Of a stretch of 33,784 bases of DNA, positions 21,866 through 33,759 are shown in pieces. The stretch's first letter is position 1. Each line of letters begins with the position of its first letter. Position numbers and translations under genes: made by a program. Below the pieces are notes generated by a model, which was given only the letters and a program-made list of their open reading frames with translations, was not told the DNA's origin and did not search any database. The stretch lies in assembly GCA_002772815.1 (NCBI GenBank), contig PFDQ01000042.1, positions 1 through 33,784 of the forward strand, written 5' to 3'. The stretch is from Candidatus Peregrinibacteria bacterium CG10_big_fil_rev_8_21_14_0_10_42_8 (GTDB taxonomy: Bacteria; Patescibacteriota; Gracilibacteria; Peribacterales; Peribacteraceae).

Positions 21866-22447
21866 TTACGAGCCAAATATTGTGCCTTCAACTTCTTTGA
21901 TCGTTTCCTCAAGCTTTCCCTCCTTATTCACAATTTGGACATCGCAATACGCGGCATGTGCGAGTTCTATTTCCATACTTGCAATTCTGCGCTTTAGCTC
22001 CTCATCGCTTATTGGAGCCCTTTCTGTAATATGTCGTATAAGCTGATCGTGATCTTCTGGCAAAATAAAGATGGACTGGAGGTCGTACCCACTATCATCT
22101 TCCCTGAAATACTGGTGATTACGAATACTATCAAACCCCTGAATATCGACTTCTCGTATGACGATGTCGCCTTTGTCGATATAGGGAATAATCTCATCAA
22201 CAAGCGTTCCATAGCGCTTTTGACCATGCACAACGGCATATTCAAGAACCTTGCCTTCTTCGAGCAATTGGTCAAATTCTTTGTCTGATACGAACTGATA
22301 TAAATCGTCCCCTTCCCCTTCTCTTTTATCTCTTGTTGTCGCACTACGAGGGAAATGGATATCTGGGTGGTTATCTCTCAAGGATTGAAGAATTACACTC
22401 TTTCCTACACCACTCGGGCCGATAAGGAGGACTAATTTACCGCTCAT
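21866..22447 (-). CDS. gmk: Guanylate kinase
   Basis: LLIGPSGVGKSVIL P-loop, SATTRDKREGEGD, VDIQGFDSIR. Confidence 0.95.
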   Translation of the reverse strand: MSGKLVLLIGPSGVGKSVILQSLRDNHPDIHFPRSATTRDKREGEGDDLYQFVSDKEFDQLLEEGKVLEYAVVHGQKRYGTLVDEIIPYIDKGDIVIREVDIQGFDSIRNHQYFREDDSGYDLQSIFILPEDHDQLIRHITERAPISDEELKRRIASMEIELAHAAYCDVQIVNKEGKLEETIKEVEGTIFGS

Positions 22448-22497
22448 TACGGCTAAGTGTACCGTATTTTACCCTTCCATTATAGCCCGATTTTTGC

Positions 22498-22503
22498 TAT
22501 AAT
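22498..22503 (+). promoter_or_regulatory. Extended -10 (TTTTTGCTATAAT) driving the ncRNA candidate
   Basis: TGC-TATAAT at 22498-22503; TTCCAT 17 bp upstream as a weak -35; divergent from the gmk start. Confidence 0.7.
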
Positions 22504-22509
22504 AATCTG

Positions 22510-22898
22510 TTCGGTCTTTAAAAGCATTGTTCGTAGAAAGAGGTGAGGAGTGACGCCTTACAAGCATGGCCTTTTTGGCCTCCTACGCTTGCCGAAGGGC
22601 GCTCGATTGTTCCATGTAGGTCAGGTTATTTCCAGAGACGCAGTCTCTGGACATCAGCTCGTCTGATGTTTTCAGTCACTTCTCGCCCCTTTCTGCTCTG
22701 CGATATGACTATCGCTCCAAACAAACATATAACGGTTTTCTTGTTGACCTACAACAAGACTCGATACCCGAAGCTCGGGTTATAACAAACATACACAAGG
22801 ACTTGTACACCGAATGTACTAAAAGAGTAGATAGGAGATACATCTCGTCAATGTGTCATAAGGGTACTACATCCGTTATTGGAAGCAGTGCCCTTTTT
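22510..22898 (+). ncRNA. Candidate free-standing ~390-nt structured noncoding RNA of unknown family
   Basis: Promoter at 22498; 21-bp helix 22533-22554/22675-22696 (one A-C mismatch, three G-U); hairpins at 22632-22650, 22652-22668, 22700-22715, 22740-22758, 22766-22780; pairing 22615-22623/22745-22753; terminator 22860-22898. No convincing ORF. Confidence 0.7.
22860..22898 (+). terminator. Rho-independent terminator of the ncRNA candidate
   Basis: AAGGGTACT ... AGTGCCCTT (9 bp, one T-G wobble) ending in a five-T run; overlaps the stop of the convergent DUF389 gene. Confidence 0.7.
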
Positions 22899-23580
22899 AC
22901 GATTCATCAGCTTTTTCAATCGCTCGTTCTTCAACTCCTGCAGTATCGATAAACCCAAGAATCCAAAACACCAAGAACCCCGCCATACAAATACCAACAA
23001 GATTTGCAGAAAAGAGTATGAGCGAATTATTGATGAGCAGTGGTTGCCATAATGCAATTCCAATTCCTGCAGCACACAAAGGTGGAAGTAAGGAGACAGC
23101 GACTGCTACTCCAGCAACAGAGCTTGAAAGATTTTCTTTTACCCATGCAAATGACGCTGCAATCCCACTACAGAATGCAATAAAAATATACACTCCTGTA
23201 TTAATGCGTTCTGGAATCCAGTTCACGACTACTCCAGTTTCTGCAAGAACAGTTGTAAGAGCAGCAGATGTCACGATAGCGATAATCACTGATGAGACGA
23301 GTATCTTCAACGATCGCAAAAACCCTCGTGTATTTCCAGATACAAGTGATAGCGAAATAGATAACAACGGGATCAGCAATGGTGCCAAAATCATTCCTCC
23401 AATAATAACTGATACATTATTAATAAGAATACCAGGAGTTACAATAAGGATCGCAAGCATCAGCAAAAGGTAATATCCGCTATGAAACGTTCCTTGCGAG
23501 ATGAGCTTTTCAATAGCTGCGTGTCGCTCCTTACGAGATGAGTCGAGTAGTGATGAATCTTTATGAAAAAGTGTAAACAT
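22897..23580 (-). CDS. DUF389 family membrane protein
   Basis: LLMLAILIVTPGILINNVSVIIGGMILAPLLIPLLSISLSLVSG, AGVAVAVSLLPPLCAAGIGIA; TATAAT 6 nt upstream of ATG. Confidence 0.92.
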   Translation of the reverse strand: MFTLFHKDSSLLDSSRKERHAAIEKLISQGTFHSGYYLLLMLAILIVTPGILINNVSVIIGGMILAPLLIPLLSISLSLVSGNTRGFLRSLKILVSSVIIAIVTSAALTTVLAETGVVVNWIPERINTGVYIFIAFCSGIAASFAWVKENLSSSVAGVAVAVSLLPPLCAAGIGIALWQPLLINNSLILFSANLVGICMAGFLVFWILGFIDTAGVEERAIEKADES

Positions 23581-23900
23581 ACACGCATTATACATAGAGT
23601 TTTCATCCGAGCTAGGGCCTCCTCTTCCTCCTCATCCATCCAACTCCAGCGGCTGCACCTGCACCAATGACTACAATTCCAATACAAAGAGCATATCATG
23701 CTGCGCTTAATTCAGATGATCCCGAAATTCAGGAAGCTGTTGGAAGACTCGGAGGACATTTGTAGAAGTTCGACCATCTTTGTTGATATCAATATAAAGT
23801 GGCTTATTTAAGCCATAAATATTCTTGGTGGACGATACTGGATGACGTTCGAACTCTGACGAGAAGGGCTCTTCGACTCCGCCGCGGCTTCGCTCAGAGT

Positions 23901-24773: not shown

Positions 24774-24850
24774 TGGTGGAGCTGAGGAGACTTGAACTCC
24801 TGACCCCTTGCATGCCATGCAAGTGCTCTAGCCAACTGAGCTACAGCCCC
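24774..24850 (-). tRNA. tRNA-Ala (anticodon GGC), CCA encoded
   Basis: GGGGCTGTAGCTCAGTTGGCTAGAGCACTTGCATGGCATGCAAGGGGTCAGGAGTTCAAGTCTCCTCAGCTCCACCA; all arms pair. Confidence 0.95.
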
Positions 24851-24974: not shown

Positions 24975-25052
24975 TGGTGCGCCCGGCAGGATTTGAACCT
25001 ACGACCTTTTGGACCGCAACCAAACGCTCTATCCGGGCTGAGCTACGGGCGC
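24975..25052 (-). tRNA. tRNA-Arg (anticodon GCG), CCA encoded
   Basis: GCGCCCGTAGCTCAGCCCGGATAGAGCGTTTGGTTGCGGTCCAAAAGGTCGTAGGTTCAAATCCTGCCGGGCGCACCA; TTTGG-TTGCGGT-CCAAA anticodon arm. Confidence 0.95.
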
Positions 25053-33684: not shown

Positions 33685-33759
33685 TGGGGCGTCGCCAAGT
33701 GGTAAGGCACTGGTTTCTGGTACCAGCATTCGGGGGTTCGAATCCCTCCGCCCCAGCCA
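33685..33759 (+). tRNA. tRNA-Gln (anticodon CTG), CCA encoded
   Basis: TGGGGCGTCGCCAAGTGGTAAGGCACTGGTTTCTGGTACCAGCATTCGGGGGTTCGAATCCCTCCGCCCCAGCCA; TATACT upstream. Confidence 0.96.

Follow-up and report, generated by a model that had tools for sequence, protein, structure and literature searches.

A candidate new class of stand-alone structured RNA in Candidatus Peribacteraceae

OLE, ROOL and GOLLD are large orphan RNAs whose kissing loops are partly intermolecular, and ROOL and GOLLD have no known function (PMC12286853). Over long untranslated RNAs, Nus factors assembled on a boxA element raise processivity (PMC5725501, PMC7862264); the boxA consensus GYTCTTTAANA is that of Gammaproteobacteria (PMC5725501). 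The window analysed here, a 33,784-nucleotide stretch of a Candidatus Peregrinibacteria genome (contig PFDQ01000042.1), probably carries a stand-alone gene whose product is a stable structured RNA that acts in trans and belongs to a new class; a single copy is found in practically all Candidatus Peribacteraceae. Its existence and fold are well supported, whereas its action in trans as a stable RNA is what we infer from the gene layout and from boxA. As a kind, the stand-alone ornate noncoding RNA is known; the class itself has no known relative.

The gene and its leader

The gene occupies positions 22498-22898 of the window on the forward strand, from an extended -10 and a boxA-like 5' end to an intrinsic terminator, and is predicted to yield a folded noncoding RNA of about 390 bases between two protein genes, gmk and DUF389. 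Its features, with the evidence for each, are as follows.

21866-22447, - strand: gmk (guanylate kinase), divergent neighbour outside the RNA (open reading frame list, homologous loci)
22498-22503, + strand: -10 element TATAAT, extended -10 TGCTATAAT (sequence, TGC-TATAAT)
22513-22523, + strand: boxA-like element GGTCTTTAAAA, inferred 5' end of the transcript (gammaproteobacterial consensus GYTCTTTAANA)
22533-22554, + strand: P1 5' strand; its outer part GTAGAAAG is the 5' copy of GCAGGGAG (sequence, covariation)
22556-22561, + strand: P2 5' strand, pairing with 22620-22625 (covariation)
22565-22569, + strand: P3 5' strand CATGG, pairing with 22612-22616 (covariation)
22612-22616, + strand: P3 3' strand CCATG (covariation)
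22620-22625, + strand: P2 3' strand GTCAGG (covariation)
22632-22650, + strand: P4 hairpin CCAGAGAC-gca-GTCTCTGG (covariation)
22652-22668, + strand: P5 hairpin CATCAG-ctcgt-CTGATG (covariation), very variable in length among homologues
22675-22696, + strand: P1 3' strand; its outer part CTTTCTGC is the shared strand S (sequence, covariation)
22700-22715, + strand: P6 hairpin GCGATA-TGAC-TATCGC, loop kissing P10 (homologue comparison, loop permutations)
22719-22729, + strand: A-rich linker AACAAACATA, conserved as ACAAACAnACA (homologues)
22740-22758, + strand: variable hairpin CTTGTTG-accta-CAACAAG, not conserved (homologues)
22766-22780, + strand: P8 hairpin ACCCGA-agc-TCGGGT (homologues, motif search)
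22785-22798, + strand: second A-rich linker ACAAACATACACAA (homologues)
22799-22819, + strand: H-type pseudoknot, S1 GG 22799-22800/CC 22810-22811 and S2 GTACA 22805-22809/TGTAC 22815-22819 (49 homologues)
22827-22834, + strand: 3' copy GTAGATAG of the P1 5' strand, consensus GTAGGGAG; 7 of its 8 bases can pair with S
22837-22857, + strand: P10 hairpin GATACAT-CTCGTCA-ATGTGTC, loop GUCA 22847-22850 with UGAC 22706-22709 (loop permutations)
22860-22898, + strand: intrinsic terminator AAGGGTACT...AGTGCCCTT, stem 22860-22868/22887-22895, then a T run
22897-23595, - strand: DUF389 membrane protein gene, convergent neighbour outside the RNA, present at 11 loci only

A sequence-only reading of the window had proposed a noncoding RNA here, structured, free-standing and some 390 nt long, and every sequence element that it named, the -10, the Rho-independent terminator and five perfect hairpins (CCAGAGAC/GTCTCTGG, CATCAG/CTGATG, GCGATA/TATCGC, CTTGTTG/CAACAAG and ACCCGA/TCGGGT) among them, is where it was placed. 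The proposal itself is borne out by the existence of homologues, by covarying helices and by a folding energy of -138 kcal/mol for this strand, against -100.9 +/- 6.3 kcal/mol for dinucleotide shuffles (z = -5.9, matched by 0 of 100). A coding role, which that reading had also doubted, was rejected: the sole notable open reading frame (80 aa) overlaps a region with many indels among homologues. In the homologues a -10-like hexamer lies immediately upstream of boxA, and terminator-like stems follow P10.

The boxA-like element, absent from the sequence-only reading, lies a few nucleotides into the leader of this untranslated transcript; as scored against GYTCTTT, which comes from a gammaproteobacterial consensus, 51 of 55 homologues have it with no more than one mismatch and at a nearly fixed position. 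Among the other four, L040 was scored at an incorrect position, and its leader reads GATTTGTTCTTTAACA. The rnpB genes of five genomes of the same family (L132-L136, from G002, G001, G003, G008 and G005) likewise start with CCGCTCTTT, which is boxA-like, or with a sequence close to it, and GTTCTTT-like sequences also stand in the leaders of two tmRNA genes from other families (L022, L023). Since boxA follows the -10 in these 51 homologues and also stands at the start of rnpB, the gene bears the transcription signature of a stable RNA. It may be that boxA is a general mark of stable RNA genes in these genomes.

Helices, kissing loops and a pseudoknot

The five helices of the first half of the RNA, P1-P5, covary strongly. 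Among 27 distinct sequences, 94.2% of their pairs are standard against 80.2 +/- 0.7 in shuffled alignments, both sides have changed in 32 of 46 pairs, and the covariation score is 0.446 in an alignment that was fitted to the structure and so favours it, compared with 0.182 +/- 0.010 after shuffling and at most 0.119 when the strands are slid by 1-3 columns. Alignment fitting accounts neither for the outcome of the slid controls nor for the large number of compensatory pairs in P2, P4 and P5. One of the 27 rows is an antisense reading of L043; dropping it, which leaves 26 sequences, does not alter the result. The long helix for which covariation had been proposed as the test, 22533-22554 with 22675-22696, does have its 21 pairs and one mismatch, although its inner part does not hold across the family: the interior of P1 is a replaceable module, different or shorter in many members, which the first reading had overlooked. 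Sequence conservation of the inner P1 strand exceeds the needs of pairing. In four homologous cores (L043, L045, L047, L050) P5 forms an extended, nearly perfect hairpin (CCCCGCACCTTTTTCCG...) that looks like dispersed inverted repeats inserted into the RNA.

The conserved tertiary features appear to be a kissing pair between P6 and P10 and the H-type pseudoknot. At least 4 Watson-Crick base pairs form in 46 of 48 own-loop pairs, compared with 64% when loops are swapped between species, and none of 20,000 permutations equals the own-loop pairing, counts that overstate certainty, the limits of the loops and pseudoknot segments having been set by hand and the sequences being related to one another. 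The P6 loop, UGAC in the window, is UGACCA in many other members, and the two loops change together (UGACCA/UGGUCA, CGACU/AGUCG, GCCAAC/GUUGGC, GGCU/AGCC, GACG/CGUC); in five inspected loci (L033, L036, L037, L048, L049) neither a standard P10 nor a matching P6 loop was seen. Kissing within one molecule and kissing between two would both be compatible with the sequences. The H-type pseudoknot averages 9.3 bp in 49 homologues against 5.4 in shuffles and reaches at least 9 bp in 38 of the 49 segments against 8.6% of shuffles; that of the window has 7 bp, with a weak first stem of 2 bp, and the segment containing it is picked up at 22785-22855 by a covariance model of the pseudoknot-to-P10 segment (R3). 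Several early alignments of the 3' domain (A4-A8) were discarded, MAFFT having shifted P10 or the pseudoknot stems, and a further one (A9) was passed over so that the model would retain its P10 columns.

A different pseudoknot had been put forward from the window sequence, joining TGTAGGTCA (22615-22623) to TGACCTACA (22745-22753) as a kissing loop with the ACCTA hairpin. We reject it: the 9-bp complementarity exists in this genome alone, the best complementarity of the same segment in three congeners being 4, 4 and 5 bp, its 5' partner overlaps the 3' strands of the covarying helices P2 and P3, and its 3' partner lies in the variable hairpin.

Possible modes of action

The P1 5' strand GCAGGGAG is repeated as GTAGGGAG between the pseudoknot and P10, a second copy that had gone unnoticed in the sequence-only reading. 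In 52 sequences a single CTCCCTGC can pair with the 5' copy at 400 of 416 positions and with the 3' copy at 404 of 416, and both copies and the shared strand are conserved in sequence beyond the needs of pairing. The second copy of GUAGGGAG, able to replace the P1 5' strand, most likely makes contact with a protein or with another RNA molecule.

Taken together, these sequence-supported elements would make up a transcription unit started by its own -10, with boxA at the very 5' end and a fold of two domains, the first closed by P1 around its replaceable interior and the second a set of hairpins on ACAAACA linkers; the H-type pseudoknot and the P6-P10 kissing pair would tie this fold together, and the intrinsic terminator would end the RNA. 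NusB and S10 may load on boxA as they do on pre-rRNA, which would carry polymerase through the untranslated, folded RNA and let the RNA fold correctly, and the finished RNA may then act in trans as a housekeeping RNA, either in a ribonucleoprotein or as an RNA-only oligomer in the manner of OLE, ROOL and GOLLD. It is tempting, if tentative, to see here a new lineage-specific housekeeping RNA machine of Peribacteraceae, a ribonucleoprotein with its own protein partner or an RNA-only oligomer joined by kissing loops, made through rRNA-type antitermination and perhaps as indispensable as RNase P or tmRNA.

The conserved strands also allow the RNA to be read as a regulator that acts in trans, either through base pairing or by sequestering an RNA-binding protein, a reading that we consider unlikely. 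Its purine-rich strand GUAGGGAG looks like a Shine-Dalgarno sequence and its pyrimidine-rich strand CUCCCUGC like an anti-Shine-Dalgarno sequence, AGGGA agrees with ANGGA, the CsrA-type site, and the conservation in 52 homologues of both copies and the shared strand would suit such a role. CsrA sponges, however, present many GGA hairpin loops, whereas there are two or three GGA here, mostly in stems, and the length and tertiary structure of the RNA exceed those of most small regulators.

Having two copies of one strand invites a further proposal, that the 3' copy of GUAGGGAG displaces the P1 5' strand and refolds the RNA as a two-state switch. The near-equal match of the two copies to the shared strand fits it, and the two states lie within about 4 kcal/mol of one another in the window and in three homologues (L024, L027, L035). 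In most other members tested, however, the state with the 5' copy is favoured by about 5 to 18 kcal/mol, complementarity flanking the 3' copy is no better than chance (p = 0.28), and the flanks do not covary. A strand-exchange switch between the GCAGGGAG copies is thus possible but not supported across the family; we judge it improbable, and contact with a protein or other molecule more likely.

We are equally doubtful that the RNA is a strongly diverged version of a universal RNA, above all SRP RNA, or else RNase P RNA, tmRNA or 6S RNA. Rfam 15 scans of the window and eight homologous loci gave no gathering-score match to the RNA among 4227 families, including OLE, ROOL, GOLLD and the other orphan RNA models; the only gathering-score matches in the window were three tRNAs outside the RNA region (24777-24850, 24978-25052 and 33685-33756, two of them shortly past the convergent DUF389 gene). 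Permissive scans returned RUF4, DUF805b and microRNA families far below their gathering scores, which we dismiss as chance matches. The locus was thought from its sequence to be neither RNase P RNA nor tmRNA, and this is upheld: there is no RF00010 match and it is not the sole RNase P RNA, rnpB lying elsewhere in five genomes that carry it (G001, G002, G003, G005, G008); nor was there a match to RF00023, the model of tmRNA with its tRNA-like domain and tag reading frame, and ssrA lies elsewhere in six (G001-G003, G006, G008, G009). It likewise shows neither a match to RF00013 nor the long hairpin with central bubble of 6S RNA, a separate 6S RNA being present in G007 and G008, which also carry the new RNA.

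For SRP RNA the same reading holds in part. There was no match to RF00169 or RF01854, models of an RNA whose helix 8 has a GNRA-type loop and conserved internal loops, and a GGAA-type helix 8 motif was not seen by eye, as had been noted before; SRP RNA nevertheless keeps a low weight as a candidate, in that the small and large bacterial models match nothing in 19 genomes of the class (G000-G010, G057-G064), although they match many control genomes, and leave the SRP RNA of these genomes unaccounted for. In these genomes SRP RNA is either very diverged or missing. Failure of the Rfam models is more likely than identity of our RNA with SRP RNA, because families of the class without our RNA yield no SRP RNA match either. 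Literature searches on RNAs of Patescibacteria and Peribacteria found nothing relevant, and the suggestion of a new RNA class, made from the sequence, gains support from the empty Rfam scan together with conservation and covariation.

Distribution and comparison with known systems

The stand-alone RNA gene was found as a single copy in 58 of 74 genomes of the GTDB family Candidatus Peribacteraceae, which are all 58 with a readable locus; in the other 16, gmk is either unmatched, matched only weakly or in part, or at the very end of its contig. Comparison with homologous regions, as the sequence-only reading had proposed, began with blastn, which gave partial matches in the same genus and family, many of them upstream of gmk. 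A covariance model of P1-P5 (R1), built on eight aligned homologous cores, with part of the long P5 insert of one of them (L003) removed, matched a full-length core in 27 of the 74 genomes and none in any other family of a 288-genome class sample; retrained (R2), it gave no credible copy elsewhere in the class (353 genomes) or among 380 genomes sampled across the phylum, in large scans that score few candidates per genome and could miss weak members. The restricted range suggested by R1 and R2 was wrong: the two models undercounted, since what lies inside P1 can be exchanged for other sequence. Upstream of gmk in genomes lacking a full R1 match we read a -10, boxA, GCAGGGAG...CTCCCTGC, P6, ACAAACA linkers, pseudoknot, GTAGGGAG, P10 and terminator, and reading this region or other contigs added 31 genomes. 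In the class scan R3 matched 45 family genomes; its matches in G031 and G010 (family) and in G070, the sole one outside the family, were spurious on inspection. A P8 motif search of 84,980 species genomes hit ten contigs, all labelled Candidatus Peribacteria, Peribacteraceae, Peribacter or Peregrinibacteria and all agreeing in length with contigs of this family found in the other scans. Phage origin was rejected, phage records and viral contigs being without a match.

The usual site is upstream of gmk and divergent from it, with a downstream neighbour that varies (DUF389, L-asparaginase, tRNA/purE genes). Orientation is inverted in at least three genomes (G018, G026, G027), and two genomes that share a genus (G052, G028) are without the RNA upstream of gmk (L107, L108), the gene lying on another contig (L188, L189) with boxA and the main fold elements kept. 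That the RNA controls gmk, DUF389 or another neighbour in cis, as a leader, an attenuator or a riboswitch, is therefore hardly credible, even though it usually adjoins gmk: besides these varied neighbours, inversions and relocations, it is transcribed away from gmk at most loci, is ended by its own terminator, and does not lie on the same strand upstream of a conserved gene. Eleven genomes, including the single-contig G031 and other nearly complete ones, have neither a gmk match nor a confirmed copy of the RNA (G004, G024, G031, G040, G044, G050, G054, G055, G056, G111, G112), and the two seem to be missing together. Besides gmk, G053 has two additional, distant guanylate-kinase-like matches side by side (C21:943-2074).

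Large structured noncoding RNAs kept across a whole family are rare, and those without a known function have proved to be RNA complexes or new mechanisms. The host lineage, one within Patescibacteria, has genomes of roughly 1 Mb and has shed much else, yet this RNA is kept in single copy with an rRNA-type transcription signature. Its promoter, ends, fold and 58 homologues now define a concrete target, and the case suggests that Rfam is blind to stable RNAs of candidate phyla.

Set beside known systems, the RNA is like 6S RNA (RF00013) in standing alone and in its long closing helix, and unlike it in the absence of a central-bubble hairpin and of a model match, with 6S RNA at other loci in two carriers. 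It is similar in length to RNase P RNA (RF00010) and tmRNA (RF00023) and, like them, has several domains with pseudoknots, rnpB of the family sharing the boxA-like start; it differs in lacking their core motifs and any model match, and in that relatives carrying it have separate rnpB and ssrA genes. With the leaders of pre-rRNA and of CRISPR arrays it has in common a boxA-like element near the 5' end of a long untranslated RNA (PMC5725501, PMC7862264), although what lies downstream is neither rRNA nor a CRISPR array and boxA comes a few bases after the inferred start. Closest in style, though not homologous by Rfam, are OLE, ROOL and GOLLD, noncoding RNAs that stand alone, are structured, contain pseudoknots as well as kissing loops and do not obviously control a neighbour (PMC12286853), traits that the present RNA appears to share. 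It differs from them in having no sequence or model match, in being shorter and in its boxA-like leader, and it is chromosomal and retained by its family, whereas ROOL and GOLLD are phage-borne near tRNA islands (PMC12286853).
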